A stretch of DNA of 64,000 nt, taken from contig NZ_QZDU01000004.1 of assembly GCF_009917525.1 (NCBI RefSeq), forward strand, positions 62,001 to 126,000. Direction: 5' to 3'. How positions within the stretch are numbered: the first letter of the stretch is position 1; each line of letters starts with the position of its first letter. This document shows positions 2,355-63,743 of the stretch, piece after piece. Under the pieces are notes generated by a model. The model ran no database searches. It saw only the letters and a list, made by a program, of their open reading frames with translations, and was not told where the DNA came from. Made by a program: the position numbers and the translations under genes. This stretch comes from Acutalibacter sp. 1XD8-36 (GTDB taxonomy: Bacteria; Bacillota; Clostridia; Oscillospirales; Acutalibacteraceae).

Positions 2355-2897
2355 GTGCGCGGGGATTACGAGATGCTTATGCGCCTGAGGGACCGGGAGC
2401 AGGCGGCGCTGGAGAGGGCCATCCGCCAGTACTCGGGGTACGTTGCGGCGGTGGCTAAAAAGACCCTGGGGGAGTACGGCACCAGGCAGGACGTGGAGGA
2501 GCTTACCTCGGACGCATTCGTGGCGCTCTGGGCCAACGCCGGGAAGCTCAGGGACGACAGCGACCTGAAATACTGGCTGGCTGTGGTGGTGCGCAACGCC
2601 AGCCTGCGGCGGCTGAAAAAGGCAGGCGGCACCGTGCCGCTGGAGGAGAACCTGGTGTTCGACCGGTCCCCGTCTAACCAGGCCGAGAAGCAGGAGCGGA
2701 TTATGGCGGTGAGAGAGGCCGTGGACGGCCTGGAGCCGGTGGACAGGGAGATATTCCTGCGCCACTATTTCTGGCACCAGACAGTGCGGCAGATAGCAGA
2801 GGAGATGGGCAAGAACCAGGGGGCCATAAAGAGCCGCCTGCAAAGGGGCCGGGAGAAGCTGAAAAAAGTTTTGCTAAAGGAGGACTGCCCGCTATGA
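2355..2897 (+). CDS. ECF-type sigma-70 family RNA polymerase sigma factor
   Basis: This 180-aa protein has the two-domain plan of extracytoplasmic-function sigma factors. Region 2 (about residues 15-85) includes the segment around ELTSDAFVALWANAGKL, and region 4 (about 120-172) has the helix-turn-helix VRQIAEEMGKNQGAIKSRLQ. The called start is a GTG with a weak purine-rich site (aagggggcg). An ATG six codons in is an alternative. Its last codons overlap the next gene in an ATGA junction, so the two are translationally coupled. The partner is a single-pass membrane protein, as expected for a sigma/anti-sigma pair. The regulon is unknown. Confidence 0.88.
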   Translation: MRGDYEMLMRLRDREQAALERAIRQYSGYVAAVAKKTLGEYGTRQDVEELTSDAFVALWANAGKLRDDSDLKYWLAVVVRNASLRRLKKAGGTVPLEENLVFDRSPSNQAEKQERIMAVREAVDGLEPVDREIFLRHYFWHQTVRQIAEEMGKNQGAIKSRLQRGREKLKKVLLKEDCPL

Positions 2898-55572: not shown

Positions 55573-57435
55573 TTATTGGCTTATGCCGTCGGCCTTGAGT
55601 ATGCTCATGCTCCCGGAGGTGGTGTGCAGCTCGATTTTGCACTCACCGTTCCCGAATACGGCCTGGCCCCTCTTTTGGTGCTTGCGGTCCGGGGTAATCT
55701 GGGCCGGGAATTCGCACTTGAACCCCCCCGAGGAGGAGCTGTAGTCCGCGGTAAAACCGGCGTACTCGGGAAGCCTGATTTTCAGGGAGCCGCTCACCGA
55801 GTGCATATTGGCCTTCTCCGGGCACTGGTCAACCATAAGGCTTGCAGAGCCCGAGACGGTGCTCACCTTGAACTTTTCGGCGTTGCCGTGGGCGTTCAGT
55901 GAGCCGGAGACTGTGGTGAGCTCGGCCTTTTCGGCGGAGAAGCCCTTGCAGAGGTTTGTGCCCGATACGGAGTGGGCGCGGAGCTTCTCGGCGGAGCAGT
56001 CCTCAAGGGTGAGCGTGCCGGAGACTGTACCCGCGTCCAGGGTCTCTGCCGATATGGAGCGCAGGACTACCGTGCCGGACACAGTCGAGAGGGTGAAGCT
56101 ATCCCCCGAAAGCTCCCTTGCCCGGATATTGCCGCTCATGCACTGCACCCGCAGCTTCCCGATATTATGGCACTGCTCCCGGGGCACCAGCACCTCCAGG
56201 CGCTTTGAGGGCCGGGTGACCGCGTTCCAGCCCTTTGAGAGTATCCCGCCGGTGCTGTTCTGAGGGTACTCCAGTATGGTGAGCTTTGAGTCCCGGACAA
56301 ATAGCGCGGAGGAGTGCTCCGGGGCCAGGGCCTTCTTGCTGTACTCCACTATATCTACGGTGTCACCGTCCCAGGGGGCTATGCTCACCTGGCCCGTGGG
56401 CCAGTTTATGTCCAGCTCCTCAAGGCTGCTTAGCACCGCCTGCTTCCTGTAGACAAACTCGCCGTCTATAAACTCGGGCCTCTCCGGGGACATATCCATC
56501 TGCTCCATGCCCTCCGTCCCCGAGGGGCCGTTAAAGGGGAAGCCCGGGTTAAAGTCCAGGAAGCTGTTCTCACCGGCGGCTTCGGCGGCTTCCTCCATCT
56601 CCTCCATAAGCTCCTCCTGTTCCTCCGCAAGCTCCTCCTGCCACTCCACCACAACGTCCCCGAGGGCCTCCTTCATATCGTCTATGGCCTCGGTAACGTC
56701 GTCCATGGCGCCGTCCAAATCCCTGCCAAGCTCCTGGCCTATTTCCTTGAGCCCCCGGCGTATCTCCTTACCTATCCCCGAGAGCCAGCCGGTCCAGTCG
56801 CCGGAGGTGGGGGCCTGGGGCCGGGGGGCGGCGCTGCCGGCAGCATGGTCCCGGAGCTCCTGGACCTGGGCGGCGTACCGGGCCATCTCAGCCTGGCACT
56901 GGGCGGTATATCTTGCCATCTCCTGCTGGTACTCGTTCATCTCCCGGCAGTAGCGCTCGTTGTTCTCCTGGGCCTCCCGCACATAGCGCTCCATATCCTC
57001 GGGACTGCCGTCGGCAGGCCTGGGTGGCGCGGGCGTGGCAGGGGGAACAGGAGGGGCCGGGGGTATGGGCCCGGCGGGGAGCTCCAGCCCTATCTCCCCG
57101 GGCTCGCCGTGGTTTACGTTCAGTTCCGCATGGTCAGGGTGCAGGGTCAGGTCTATCTTATGGCTGCCGCCGTCTATGACCATGGACTCACCTGTGCCGT
57201 GCTCCTGCACCTCGATGGTGCCGTCGGGGTATATGGTCGCTGAGCCGTCGGAGTCGTTGACGGTGATAGACGGCGTGACCGCCTGCTGTGCCGCGGCCTG
57301 GGCCTGGTCCGTTATCCTCTCAAGCTCGCTGTCCTCCCCGGTATCCCCCAGGGCCTCCAGAAGCTCTGCGGCCTGCTCCTCTGTAAGCTTCCCTGCCGAG
57401 AGCATTTCAAGTATCATGCGCTTCTCCTCGTTCAT
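55573..57435 (-). CDS. SHOCT-like/DUF4097 beta-repeat protein
   Basis: This 620-aa protein has an N-terminal SHOCT-like helical motif (ILEMLSAGKLTEEQAAELLE). A long Pro/Glu/Gln-rich middle (about 100-330) and a coiled, acidic part follow. The C-terminal DUF4097 right-handed beta-repeat (about 400-620) repeats units like TVSGTVVLRSISAETLDAG and TVSGSASLMV. LiaX of enterococci, which senses daptomycin and cationic peptides, combines similar domains. No signal peptide is seen. It is the last gene of the DUF2089 operon, joined to the 49-aa gene by an ATGA overlap. Confidence 0.85.
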   Translation of the reverse strand: MNEEKRMILEMLSAGKLTEEQAAELLEALGDTGEDSELERITDQAQAAAQQAVTPSITVNDSDGSATIYPDGTIEVQEHGTGESMVIDGGSHKIDLTLHPDHAELNVNHGEPGEIGLELPAGPIPPAPPVPPATPAPPRPADGSPEDMERYVREAQENNERYCREMNEYQQEMARYTAQCQAEMARYAAQVQELRDHAAGSAAPRPQAPTSGDWTGWLSGIGKEIRRGLKEIGQELGRDLDGAMDDVTEAIDDMKEALGDVVVEWQEELAEEQEELMEEMEEAAEAAGENSFLDFNPGFPFNGPSGTEGMEQMDMSPERPEFIDGEFVYRKQAVLSSLEELDINWPTGQVSIAPWDGDTVDIVEYSKKALAPEHSSALFVRDSKLTILEYPQNSTGGILSKGWNAVTRPSKRLEVLVPREQCHNIGKLRVQCMSGNIRARELSGDSFTLSTVSGTVVLRSISAETLDAGTVSGTLTLEDCSAEKLRAHSVSGTNLCKGFSAEKAELTTVSGSLNAHGNAEKFKVSTVSGSASLMVDQCPEKANMHSVSGSLKIRLPEYAGFTADYSSSSGGFKCEFPAQITPDRKHQKRGQAVFGNGECKIELHTTSGSMSILKADGISQ

Positions 57436-57582: not shown

Positions 57583-57978
57583 TTATTTATCCCCTTTCAG
57601 TGACTTCAGGGCCTCCAGGGCCGCGTCCACGCTCATGTCCCCTCCCGACAGGCGGGAGAGTATCTCCGAGCGCTCCTCCTTCCTGCTCTCCTCCCGGAGC
57701 TCAGGCTTCCCGTCCAGGTGCAAAGCGGCAAGGGCCGCGTCAAGCATGTTCTTAACTGTGGGGTAGCTTACCCCCAGGGCCCGCTCCACCTCCTTGATGG
57801 ACCCCCGGCACCGGAGGAACACCTCCACGAACTGCAAATGCTTCTCCTCCAGTGTGCAGAAGCGGCAGGGGGCGAACTGCCCGGAGAGCTCCGTATGGCA
57901 GCTGGGGCAGCGGAGCTTTGTGACCTGCATGGGCTCCCCGCAGACCGGGCACTGGGATGGGGCATGATAGGTTTTCAT
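57583..57978 (-). CDS. DUF2089 zinc-ribbon/HTH regulator
   Basis: This 131-aa protein has an N-terminal zinc ribbon (CPVCGEPMQVTKLRCPSCHTE) plus a further Cys pair in FAPCRFC. A sigma-region-4-like helix-turn-helix follows (FVEVFLRCRGSIKEVERALG, VSYPTVKNMLDAALAAL), then an acidic helical tail. DUF2089 proteins are thought to regulate the operon they begin. The ATG at 57978 has GGAAAG upstream. It likely controls the downstream 49-aa and DUF4097 genes. Confidence 0.88.
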   Translation of the reverse strand: MKTYHAPSQCPVCGEPMQVTKLRCPSCHTELSGQFAPCRFCTLEEKHLQFVEVFLRCRGSIKEVERALGVSYPTVKNMLDAALAALHLDGKPELREESRKEERSEILSRLSGGDMSVDAALEALKSLKGDK

Positions 57979-58172
57979 AGTATAGTCACTTTCCTTTCTG
58001 TATGATATGAGATATGGTCTGATTAACTTCCGATTTGCTTTCCATGGTTGCATTATATACCCTGGCCTTAAAAATGTCAAGCACAAAATCAATTTTTTTA
58101 AGAAAAATCTTTAATTATTTTAAGTTTAGACTTTAACACTACAATAGTTGTGATAATAAAGGCCAAAAGAAG

Positions 58173-60258: not shown

Positions 60259-61611
60259 TCAAGGGTGATTGACAAGGCCTATAAAGAGGGGGAAGCTGTT
60301 CTGGGACTGTATGAGGAAGATGAAGGGCCGGTCGAGGATAAAGTCTATCTCGGCCTCAGGCCTCGGCGGGTCCCCGGCCCCGGCAAACCCCGCCTCCACA
60401 TAGGACGCGGCAGTACAGCCGTTCTCGTCTATCATCACCCGGGCGGCATGGTTTATGCGGCTTATATAAATGGGTATATTGTTGAGGGTGAGGGGGTCGA
60501 AATTACTTTTCCGGGGGTCAAAGGCGTCGGTAATGCCAAGGTCTGTTAAGGTCTCGCTGAGCTCGCTTTGGAAGGAGACGTCAAACTTCGGGACGATAAA
60601 GTTTATCCTGGCCAGGGACTCGTCACCCCAGGGAGAGGAGCCCTCGTCCCGGCGGCTGACTATCCACCGGAAAAATTCCCACAGGCTGCTGTCCTCACTG
60701 AGCACCTGGTCGATACTGCTGTCCTCCCGGGGGAGTATAAAGGTCATGGAGGAGCCGTCGGACAGCCCCAGGGAGGCCGCGGTGAAAAGGGGGGCCCGGT
60801 AGAAGTGGTTTATAATACCGCGGCTGGTGTTGTCCATAAACTCACACTCTATGCCGCCCTCGGGGGAGTGGAACAGGCGGGTGGAGGTGCAGTCCTCGGG
60901 GAAGCGCTTGGACCAGCAGGAGTAGAAATACACGGTGCTCATAAGCTCCAGCACAGTTTCAGGGTCCATATTAAGGCCGCCGGTGCCAAGGAGGTCATGG
61001 GTCTTCTCGCTGGTCCACTCCCGCAGGAGGGCGTCGTATCCGGCAGTCCCCGGGTCCCCCCGGAAGCTCTCGGCAAAGTAGCTGTCTGCCAGGATGTCAA
61101 GGGTCTTTTGCTTATACTCAATGGAGTTATTGAGCCAGAGGGAGTTTGCAAGCTCGGTCTCGCCGCCGCTCCCGCTGTAGGCGTTCAGGACCCAAAGCTG
61201 CCGGGAGCTCTCCCGCAGGTCCTCAAGGCTGGCCCCAACTGCCTTTTCTATCTGCTCCCGGGTCTCGCCGCCGGTTATCTCGGCTGTCATAGCCAGGGCG
61301 ACAGTGAGGTTTACAGGGGAGTATACCCGGTTCTCTCCCTTATGCCCGGAGAGTATCAGCCGGGAGCTGTGGCTCCAGAAGGGCTGGAACAGCTTGTGTA
61401 TGCGGGGGATATTCTCCCAGGCACTATGGGCCTCGTCCTCAAGTGCGGCTTCTATATCAGGCTCAGGGCCCGCAAGCCTTGCGCTCCCTGTGAACAGCGG
61501 CCGGGTGCTGGTCCCCGCGCCGCTGAAGGCAACCGCCGCTGCCGTCACAGCTAAAATAACCGCCAGTACTATCAGCACTAACATAAGCTTTTGGCTCCTT
61601 TTCAGCTTCAT
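60259..61611 (-). CDS. Serpin, membrane-anchored (second of two)
   Basis: This 450-aa serpin has a short cytoplasmic start and one signal-anchor helix (about 9-30), then a full serpin fold. Core motifs are VYSPVNLTVALAMTAEITGG, ELANSLWLNN and AEIDFILDRPFIFLI. The reactive-loop hinge is DENGCTAASY: Gly at P15 and Ala at P12-P11 are those of inhibitory serpins. P1 is about an Ala in FAGAGD, pointing to elastase- or subtilisin-like targets. The ATG has GAGGAGG upstream and lies 14 nt after the first serpin. Confidence 0.88.
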   Translation of the reverse strand: MKLKRSQKLMLVLIVLAVILAVTAAAVAFSGAGTSTRPLFTGSARLAGPEPDIEAALEDEAHSAWENIPRIHKLFQPFWSHSSRLILSGHKGENRVYSPVNLTVALAMTAEITGGETREQIEKAVGASLEDLRESSRQLWVLNAYSGSGGETELANSLWLNNSIEYKQKTLDILADSYFAESFRGDPGTAGYDALLREWTSEKTHDLLGTGGLNMDPETVLELMSTVYFYSCWSKRFPEDCTSTRLFHSPEGGIECEFMDNTSRGIINHFYRAPLFTAASLGLSDGSSMTFILPREDSSIDQVLSEDSSLWEFFRWIVSRRDEGSSPWGDESLARINFIVPKFDVSFQSELSETLTDLGITDAFDPRKSNFDPLTLNNIPIYISRINHAARVMIDENGCTAASYVEAGFAGAGDPPRPEAEIDFILDRPFIFLIQSQNSFPLFIGLVNHP

Positions 61612-61625
61612 AATAAATCCTCCTC

Positions 61626-63083
61626 TCAGCTGTCTACGCGGTTTACCGCGCCCATATACACAGGCAGGCCCGCGGTGTTTATAATGGTGAACAGGAAGGG
61701 CCGGTCCAGGGTGAAGTCTATCTCCTCCTCCGGGGGCTCCTCGGATGTCCCTCCCAGCATTACCAGCACCGAGGCCCCCTCGCAGCCCTCCTCGTCTATA
61801 GAGACGCGGCAGGTGTGCCGCACGCTGGTGAAGGCAAAGTCCCGGTCGGTGATGGGTGAGAAGCTGCCGTAGCCTGCTTCAAAGATTCCGTTTACGCCCA
61901 GCTTCTTAAGGCCCAGGGCCATCTCCATGTCCGAGGCTATGTCAAACTTGGGGACGCTCATATTTATAATGGCCCGCCCGGCGTTCTGCCACAGGCCGGG
62001 GCTTTGGAGGTAGGCTGAGATAAAATCCCTGTACTCCCCGTCGGCCAGGAGCTCGTTTGTGGAAATATCCTCCCCGGGCAGGACAAAGAGCATGCTCCCG
62101 CCGAACATGGATTTTGATACCGCTGTAAAGCCCTCCCCCTTATAATAATACCCGGCGGCGGTCTCGTTCATGAAGGTGCAGGGCTGGTCCATATAGGCGG
62201 CGTGGAAATAGCCCTCACTATTCAGGGCGGGGTTGAACTCATCGGACCAGCGGCCCTTAAAGTACAGGGTGCTGTCAAGGCACATAACCGTGTCGGGGCT
62301 GAGGTCCAGCTCCGGGAGCCTGCCCTCAAGATAGCCGTTGGTCTTTTCACTGAGCCAGTTAAGGTGCATGAGCTGGTACTCGGAGCTGCCCATATCCCCC
62401 CTGAAGCTGTCGGCAAAGTAGTTTTCAGCCAAAATATCCAGCACCGGCTGCTTATAGTCCACGGAGTTTGAGAGCCACAGGGAGTTTGCCAGAAGGCAGG
62501 TGCTCTGCTCCAGGGAGAAGCTGGCGCACCAAATCTGCCGGGCGCTGTCCCTCAGGTCCTCTATGCCGGGGCTTTTCAGCAGGCTGAGGATTTCCTGCCG
62601 GGGCCCGCCCTCACAGAGCTCCGCGGACATCCCCAGCACGGTGTACAGGCTGACGGGGCTGAATATCATGTTCTCACCGTTCACGGCGGTGAGGAAGGTA
62701 CCGGCGCTGTCGGCCCAGAAGCTGCCCAGCCGCCGGGCATAGGCCTCCCTGTTGTCATAATATTCCTCACGGCCCCGCTCTATCTCCTCCCACTGGCTGC
62801 CGCTCCCATCAGAACAGCCGCTGCCGCCGGCATATGGGCCCGCCTCCGGGGCCTCGGAGCCGTCTGGTCCAGGGTACCGGGCCTCTGCAAGCTGGGCTGC
62901 GCCGGTATAGAGGGGCTGTGCGCCCGGTACCCTGGCCTTCAGAAAGGGCGCGGCAATAAGGGCCAGCACCAGGCAGGCGGCGATTGGGGTAATATACCAC
63001 AGGCGGGAGCGGCGGGGCTTGGCAAACTCTATCTGGTCGTCCCGGATACCTGTGATTGCGTCAAATATGTCCTCAGGCTTCAT
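61626..63083 (-). CDS. Serpin with anti-sigma-like N-terminus (first of two)
   Basis: This 485-aa protein has a 28-residue cytoplasmic segment (MKPEDIFDAITGIRDDQIEF), a membrane helix (about 30-50), a Pro/Gly-rich stalk (about 60-110) and a complete serpin domain. Serpin motifs include IFSPVSLYTVLGMSAELCEG, LANSLWLSNSVDYKQPVLDI and EIDFTLDRPFLF. The hinge is DEEGCEGASV, with Gly at P12 instead of Ala, so inhibitory capacity is less certain. It overlaps the ECF sigma gene by ATGA. The N-terminal arrangement is that of membrane anti-sigma factors; binding of the sigma factor is inferred. Confidence 0.87.
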   Translation of the reverse strand: MKPEDIFDAITGIRDDQIEFAKPRRSRLWYITPIAACLVLALIAAPFLKARVPGAQPLYTGAAQLAEARYPGPDGSEAPEAGPYAGGSGCSDGSGSQWEEIERGREEYYDNREAYARRLGSFWADSAGTFLTAVNGENMIFSPVSLYTVLGMSAELCEGGPRQEILSLLKSPGIEDLRDSARQIWCASFSLEQSTCLLANSLWLSNSVDYKQPVLDILAENYFADSFRGDMGSSEYQLMHLNWLSEKTNGYLEGRLPELDLSPDTVMCLDSTLYFKGRWSDEFNPALNSEGYFHAAYMDQPCTFMNETAAGYYYKGEGFTAVSKSMFGGSMLFVLPGEDISTNELLADGEYRDFISAYLQSPGLWQNAGRAIINMSVPKFDIASDMEMALGLKKLGVNGIFEAGYGSFSPITDRDFAFTSVRHTCRVSIDEEGCEGASVLVMLGGTSEEPPEEEIDFTLDRPFLFTIINTAGLPVYMGAVNRVDS

Positions 63084-63637
63084 ATTGTATAGCCCTCCTT
63101 TTCAAGGCAGTTTTTAAGTGATTTCCTCAGCTGGTAGGTGCGCTGGGCAAGCGCGCCGGGTGCCTCCTCCATCTCGGCGGCAATTTCCCCCAGGCTGTCG
63201 CAGAACCAGTAGCGCCGCACAAACAGCTCCTTATCCCTGGGGGGCAGGCCGTCCAGCCACCGGGTTATTATGCCGGTAAGAGCCCGGGAATCCACCTGGT
63301 CGTCTATAGAGCTGCCGTCCGGCAGGCAGTCCGCAAGCTCCGAGAGCATGCTGTCCATGCCGCAGGAGCGCTTTGAGGCCCTCCCCGAGCGGTACCTTGA
63401 AACAGACAGGTTTCTTGTGACCCGCCCCAGGAAGGCCCGCAGGGAGCGGGGTATAAGGGGCGGTATCTGCCTCCAGGCGGCAAAAAGCGCGTCGCTGACG
63501 CACTCCTCGGCGTCCTCAATGGAGCCCAGCAGGTTCAGTGCTATCTTATTACAGTACGGCCCGTACTTGCGGCGGGTCTCGCTGATAGCCAGCTCGTCCC
63601 GGCGCTTAAACAGCTCGATAATGCGCATATCCTCCAC
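63080..63637 (-). CDS. ECF-type sigma factor of the serpin operon
   Basis: This 185-aa sigma-70-family protein has region 2 in LLGSIEDAEECVSDALFAAW and region 4 in RRYWFCDSLGEIAAEMEEAP. The GTG at 63637 has AGGAGGGGG at good spacing. An ATG three codons on is possible. A longer ATG start at 63667 has no ribosome site. It is translationally coupled to a membrane-anchored serpin, an unusual partner. It presumably directs its own operon. Confidence 0.86.
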   Translation of the reverse strand: MEDMRIIELFKRRDELAISETRRKYGPYCNKIALNLLGSIEDAEECVSDALFAAWRQIPPLIPRSLRAFLGRVTRNLSVSRYRSGRASKRSCGMDSMLSELADCLPDGSSIDDQVDSRALTGIITRWLDGLPPRDKELFVRRYWFCDSLGEIAAEMEEAPGALAQRTYQLRKSLKNCLEKEGYTI

Positions 63638-63743
63638 AGGGTTCCCCCTCCTTGAAAGGCCTCTCATGTATATAGTCGCAGAAATTCGGGAAATATTGAA
63701 GGGAAATTGAAAAATTTTTCTTGAGATTTTTTCTTATAAGAGC

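Follow-up and report, generated by a model that had tools for sequence, protein, structure and literature searches.

An operon encoding an ECF sigma factor and two membrane serpins

At the end of the window, by which we mean the whole 64,000-nucleotide stretch of Acutalibacter sp. 1XD8-36 DNA that was analysed, the minus strand carries an operon for an ECF sigma factor, a membrane serpin (serp1) and a second membrane serpin (Table 1), the only two serpins in this 3.2-Mb genome. The sigma and serp1 genes share an ATGA overlap that is likely to couple their translation, as judged from the sequence, and the second serpin gene starts 14 nt downstream of serp1. The serp1 protein consists of a basic N-terminus of about 27 residues, placed in the cytosol by the basic residues that precede the membrane helix, then one transmembrane (TM) helix and then a complete serpin. 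A preliminary description of this DNA had reported the overlap of a sigma gene with a membrane serpin, a complete serpin domain outside and a second serpin gene, and all of these hold up: the reading frames overlap as described, serp1 covers positions 18-368 of the 370 in the Pfam Serpin profile (PF00079, E 1.8e-46) and has a tengpin fold match, and the second gene is real (profile positions 17-370, E 2.8e-50), its product clustering with serp1 and the serpin of locus L005 in a supported clade of the serpin tree.

Downstream of the operon lie a sugar-isomerase-like gene and an oxidoreductase-like gene, and upstream is a divergent gene for a small secreted protein of 220 aa, which we considered as the target protease and dropped because protease features were not obvious by eye. 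At window positions 2376-2885 (L115), a further ECF sigma gene, 31% identical to that of the operon, has an ATGA overlap with a different membrane partner, after which comes a response regulator gene. Further along the operon's strand (minus), a gene pair encodes a 620-aa protein with a repeated TVSGS/SVSGS motif (55573-57435) and a small zinc-ribbon-like protein (57583-58092).

Table 1. Features of the sigma-serpin operon, in window positions
Feature	Position	Strand	Basis
ECF sigma factor, 185 aa, GTG start	63080..63637	-	PF04542 and TIGR02937 above cut-off, PF08281 just below; ortholog starts coincide
Promoter-like element, TTCAAT - 16 nt - CGACTATATA	63662..63700	-	24 nt upstream of GTG start
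ATGA overlap, sigma stop / serpin start	63080..63083	-	Sequence; identical overlap in most fused pairs
Anti-sigma-like membrane serpin (serp1), 485 aa	61626..63083	-	ORF, Pfam, AlphaFold
Cytosolic N-terminal segment, residues 1-27 (MKPEDIFDAITGIRDDQIEFAKPRRSR), putative sigma-binding module	63003..63083	-	Profile A1
Transmembrane helix, residues ~30-48	62940..62996	-	Hydropathy; AlphaFold helix 31-49, low confidence
Conserved juxtamembrane strand, residues 61-71 (GAAQLAEARYP), predicted to dock	62871..62903	-	Column conservation; AlphaFold
Serpin domain, residues 134-481	61641..62684	-	Pfam E 1.8e-46; solved serpins by sequence and fold
Hinge and reactive-centre loop, residues 433-457 (GCEGASVLVMLGGTSEEPPEEEIDF)	61713..61787	-	P15/P12 conservation; loop divergence
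Second membrane-anchored serpin, 450 aa, without anti-sigma segment; serp1 paralog	60259..61611	-	Pfam, serpin tree

Sigma factor and candidate promoter

The sigma factor has the composition of the ECF group, with Sigma70 regions 2 and 4 only and a length close to the ~180 aa expected. It matches Pfam Sigma70_r2 (E 5.8e-9) and the NCBIfam sigma70-ECF model above their cut-offs, and region 4 just below (E 1.6e-5, 24.9 bits vs a cut-off of 25.7). The true start is probably the GTG at 63637, because the ortholog sigma factors begin at the same point and a AAGGAGGGGG Shine-Dalgarno sequence precedes it, while the ATG at 63667 of an alternative, longer reading frame abuts a promoter-like -10 element at a distance of two bases. 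The layout of the whole promoter-like element is identical in L003, L004 and L005. When the upstream regions of 46 sigma genes were searched with the loose motif AA[CT]-N15-18-CG[AT]CT, nine contained it against 1.1 expected from shuffles, a count that treats close orthologs as separate entries; strict matching upstream of sigma genes gave few sites, the enrichment being confined to the loose form. As a candidate autoregulated ECF promoter, the element is suggestive only.

The N-terminal segment as an ECF-partner module

Searches of Pfam and NCBIfam gave no match for the N-terminal segment of serp1, and we therefore made a custom profile (A1) of 50 positions, restricted to the cytosolic and TM segment with no serpin sequence, and ran it on 99 relatives. 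The aligned N-termini carry a motif like MKxEKLxDAIGxIDDxLIxxA, followed by a basic stretch and the TM helix. In 29 of the 30 best loci the match begins on the stop codon of the ECF sigma gene before it; the remaining locus lies at a contig edge. The ectodomain is a serpin in about half of the profile A1 loci and DUF4179 in L126 and L139, others having no known domain. Within the window's genome, the closest paralog of the sigma factor (48%) is paired with a DUF4179 protein encoded directly after it, and the second-closest (37%, at C1:70933) is followed by a profile A1 match (G000:C1:71490, E 8.6e-7) whose ectodomain has no Pfam match. DUF4179, an RsiV-type anti-sigma domain found in RsiV and BAS1627 (PMC6066255), was absent by Pfam from 40 of 40 fused sigma-serpin proteins and present only in partners of the sigma paralogs. 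The RsgI N-terminal domain likewise had no Pfam match in serp1 or the 40 fused relatives.

Because the segment stands beside an ECF sigma factor in 29 of 30 loci and is joined to many ectodomains, it reads as a module that can be exchanged among ECF partners, the simplest identity for it being an anti-sigma domain, and the sequence comparison supports this strongly. The serp1 gene lies directly beside the ECF sigma gene and its product has a single TM helix, a cytosolic N-terminus and a segment in common with other ECF partners of several ectodomain types, as anti-sigma factors of this kind do. The anti-sigma-like N-terminus of the preliminary description has in this way gained considerable substance, and the separate anti-sigma gene that it had named as contrary evidence was not seen at the locus, either among the window's ORFs or in the upstream neighbour. 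An anti-sigma role of the serp1 N-terminus is likely, with residues 1-27 as the part that would bind and inhibit the sigma factor; in single-chain folding by AlphaFold, residues 1-33 fall below 50 pLDDT.

Serpin domain, reactive loop and juxtamembrane strand

Full-length serpin folds are the rule in this family, with 40 of 40 fused relatives matching PF00079. The AlphaFold model of serp1 has a mean pLDDT of 79.8, with most blocks of the serpin domain at 85-95, and its top Foldseek match is native tengpin (PDB 2PEE; TMt 0.81, E 1.1e-25); corticosteroid-binding globulin, a non-inhibitory serpin, is also among the fold matches. For inhibitory serpins the hinge consensus at P17-P9 is ExGTEAAAA (PMC8233489). 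Across 40 aligned fused relatives, P15 is Gly and P12 is Ala or Gly in every sequence and P11-P10 are small in 37 to 40, but P14 is Cys, Val or Leu in place of Thr and P9 is mostly Tyr or Phe, also Val. With the hinge kept in part but departing from the consensus at P14 and P9, we consider loop insertion by the fused serpins likely, though their hinge is not canonical. The Cys found at P14 in half of the fused serpins is unusual for serpins and might conceivably serve a redox or disulfide function. When close relatives were compared in 15 mostly independent pairs, loop positions P7-P5' belonged to the more divergent parts of the serpin (median percentile 0.09; combined Fisher p ~1e-4). An inhibitor-like hinge together with a fast-evolving loop would fit a protease bait.

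Just outside the membrane, AlphaFold places a short strand at residues 63-66 of serp1 (block pLDDT 79), and in the L049 protein the same segment, AYAIC, forms a strand at 62-66 (block pLDDT 85) with the residues after it at 90-95. The strand has the family consensus xAYAxAEAxYP and is predicted to dock on the serpin core in the native state; the linker between it and the TM helix is of variable length and is modelled at low confidence. Such docking has a parallel in tengpin, whose native state is stabilised by an N-terminal tail bound close to strand s1A (PMC8233489). The docking motif is present also in serpins that have no N-terminal module and is therefore not specific to signalling. We considered the A-x-A within the strand as a conserved signal-peptidase site, a proposal weakened by its occurrence in strict form in only 19 of 40 fused proteins (22 of 40 when A-x-A-like versions are counted); serp1 has a degenerate A-A-Q.

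Distribution and evolution of sigma-serpin pairs

The preliminary description had proposed searching other genomes for sigma-serpin gene pairs, and the search found them in quantity. The pair is kept with the same overlap in L003 to L007, over which sigma identity falls from 92% to 38%; these loci include Acutalibacter sp. 1XD8-33, whose sequence recurs in L043, from the window's genus. Within the order, 394 genomes were searched with serp1, and the matches formed a strong group, in which the N-terminus was often aligned, and a weak group matching the serpin body only. Of the 119 serpin ORFs that we inspected, 55 begin where an ECF sigma gene ends, the overlap being 4 bases in most; the ORFs were chosen by serpin homology and include a few duplicates, so this fraction is no census. 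With 20 sigma-70 region-2 genes in the window's genome, the chance of finding one directly upstream of a random gene is below 1%, and the adjacency is not due to chance. We gathered some 60 sigma/serpin fusions, most of them from the window's order (fused pairs outside it: L146/L007 and L156) and a few from beyond its class (L176 and L177). By this sequence survey the arrangement is widespread and recurrent, extending over dozens of genomes.

Related operons are built in other ways. Split operons (L018, L024, L041, L129 and L142) encode the sigma factor, an N-terminal module without a serpin and a separate lipoprotein serpin. Directly 3' of the split-type serpins in L024 (172-1035) and L041 (232-1020) are lipoproteins with a ILQYTWDGWGISYKTIEDCDTLYNI motif in common, possibly further members of the split-type operon. 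Another ECF type (MDNGxSSYRRFL), whose partner is rich in arginine (RRSExRIxxRKRKR), lies upstream of lipoprotein serpins in L013, L020, L022 and L036; L027 has a similar partner and a truncated sigma factor, L032 has a module of the MDNGxSSYRRFL type fused to a serpin, and L095 a related fused form. Most loci have no second serpin and the fused serpin stands alone. Tandem serpins that both bear an anti-sigma N-terminus occur in L006 (2879-4411 and 5001-6377) and L074 (3052-4503 and 4520-6025), each with just one sigma gene detected, lying between the two or ahead of them; these serpins may be competing brakes. In L167 (280-2565) and L171 (244-2562), a serpin is fused to what by eye resembles an N-terminal amino-acid-binding (solute-binding) protein domain.

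The serpin tree, built by a quick method with SH-aLRT support only, has two deep supported clades, one with the fused serpins of L032, L012 and L014 and the other with the window type. On the sigma tree, the label 'fused' has to change 18 times, compared with 25 in shuffles, and supported branches force at least 11 of the 18. Because fused forms turn up in both deep serpin clades and on distant sigma lineages, sigma factor and serpin were probably paired on more than one occasion, and the repeated label changes indicate that sigma modules have acquired or lost serpins many times over. We rejected the idea of sigma factor and serpin as one strictly co-inherited unit, as the labels change several times on both trees. 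The recurrence itself suggests real selection for the pairing.

Comparison with known systems

The closest parallel is Sigma-V/RsiV of Bacillus subtilis (ECF30; PMC5014341, PMC6066255), which also joins an ECF sigma factor to a single-TM membrane anti-sigma factor. RsiV is sensor, anti-sigma factor and lysozyme inhibitor in one (PMC5014341), and signal peptidase cleaves it only once lysozyme is bound (PMC6066255). Its ectodomain binds and inhibits a host enzyme, a receptor-inhibitor role to which that of serp1 may be likened, and its site-1 and site-2 regulated proteolysis is the model that we propose for serp1. In the window's genome, the closest sigma paralog is paired with a protein bearing DUF4179, the RsiV-type domain. 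By analogy, an RsiV-like receptor-inhibitor is the best model for serp1. The two differ in that RsiV has DUF4179 and a lysozyme-binding domain where serp1 has a serpin, which would have a serine protease as its target and would inhibit it in a covalent, suicidal reaction accompanied by a large change of fold.

RsgI sensor domains range widely, each matching the function that is induced. SigI/RsgI of Clostridium thermocellum (PMC12484212) is similar in carrying exchangeable extracellular sensors on a common anti-sigma end; its sensors, however, are carbohydrate-binding modules, and Pfam finds no RsgI domain in the serp1 family. The cellulosomal serpins of C. thermocellum are dockerin-bearing effectors, unlike serp1. 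Siropins, the Bifidobacterium longum serpin and miropin share with serp1 the bacterial serpin fold and hinge and a host-associated setting, but the published accounts treat them as effectors and mention neither a sigma factor nor an anti-sigma segment (PMC5127057, PMC8233489). Tengpin, the nearest solved structure (PDB 2PEE), keeps its native state by means of an N-terminal extension docked on the serpin body (PMC8233489), but no cytosolic or anti-sigma part is reported for it, and the docking site in serp1, itself predicted, may differ.

Proposed mechanism and alternatives

We put at roughly 0.6 the probability that the operon encodes a sigma/anti-sigma pair with a protease inhibitor as its sensor domain, in which protease attack would release the sigma factor and lead to more serpin. 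From comparison with its relatives, the cytosolic N-terminus of serp1 would keep the ECF sigma factor inactive, and the outer serpin would be both bait and trap, so that a protease cutting the reactive loop would set off the stressed-to-relaxed change. This change after a loop cut is known serpin behaviour. In the native state the juxtamembrane strand, A-x-A-like in about half of the family, would be docked on the serpin body, as AlphaFold predicts, and the stressed-to-relaxed change would undock it. Signal peptidase and an M50 protease, both of which kinds are encoded in the window's genome, would then complete regulated proteolysis and free the sigma factor, which would transcribe its own operon from the TTCAAT element and put more serpin on the surface. 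With the fused serpin alone in most loci, receptor and effector would be one molecule; in this genome the induced set would include the duplicated serpin, which has no brake and fits an effector arm. Protease sensing by serp1 is proposed here by analogy. The more specific proposal, that the stressed-to-relaxed change itself is the transmembrane signal that frees the sigma factor, and that such proteins are widespread receptors of gut Clostridia that act once and covalently and are consumed by the protease that they trap and replenished in response to it, seems to us evenly balanced between right and wrong.

The alternative that survives best also takes serp1 for a true anti-sigma factor but has the serpin sense a ligand, as hormone-carrying serpins do, or envelope or folding stress that switches the metastable serpin. 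The service of the N-terminal module to many unrelated ectodomains, the hinge deviations at P14 and P9 and the fold match to corticosteroid-binding globulin would all suit it. Against these stand the retained P15 Gly and small P12-P10 residues and the fast-evolving loop, as expected of a protease bait, and the inhibition of elastase-like proteases by gut relatives, the siropins (PMC5127057); we consider this alternative unlikely.

Rather less probable still is that serp1 is a mere effector, its N-terminus a signal anchor, and that the sigma factor drives the serpin operon while being regulated elsewhere. Sigma operons often hold sigma-controlled effectors, the second serpin is anchored without the module, and some module-bearing serpins have no adjoining sigma gene (e.g. 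L093 and the second serpin of L074). This account leaves unexplained a conserved 27-residue pre-TM segment common to ECF partners with quite different ectodomains and encoded as a separate, serpin-free protein in the split operons, and it meets with no other anti-sigma candidate at the locus. Plain shedding, in which any surface protease cuts the linker or loop of a sensor and anti-sigma serp1 and the stump is degraded with no conformational role, would agree with the variable, low-confidence linker and with the site-1 then site-2 cascade that commonly frees sigma factors from anti-sigma factors (PMC7593790), but is just as improbable, as a whole serpin with a retained hinge would be superfluous and the membrane-proximal segment is predicted to be docked, not free.

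Implications for gut Clostridia

The preferred reading, a sigma/anti-sigma pair with a serpin as its protease sensor, belongs to a class that is undescribed as far as the open-access literature shows. That literature contained no description of a serpin with an ECF sigma or anti-sigma factor, matches being incidental, in agreement with the earlier remark that no pathway of this kind had been described. Bacterial serpins have so far been studied mostly as effectors. If the reading is correct, gut Clostridia use serpins as receptors, a metastable inhibitor having been turned into a signalling device, and the RsiV principle that receptor and inhibitor are the same molecule would extend to a second enzyme class. 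It would also offer a testable answer to how commensals sense the serine proteases of host or rivals, such as neutrophil elastase and pancreatic enzymes, a question that bears on inflammatory bowel disease.
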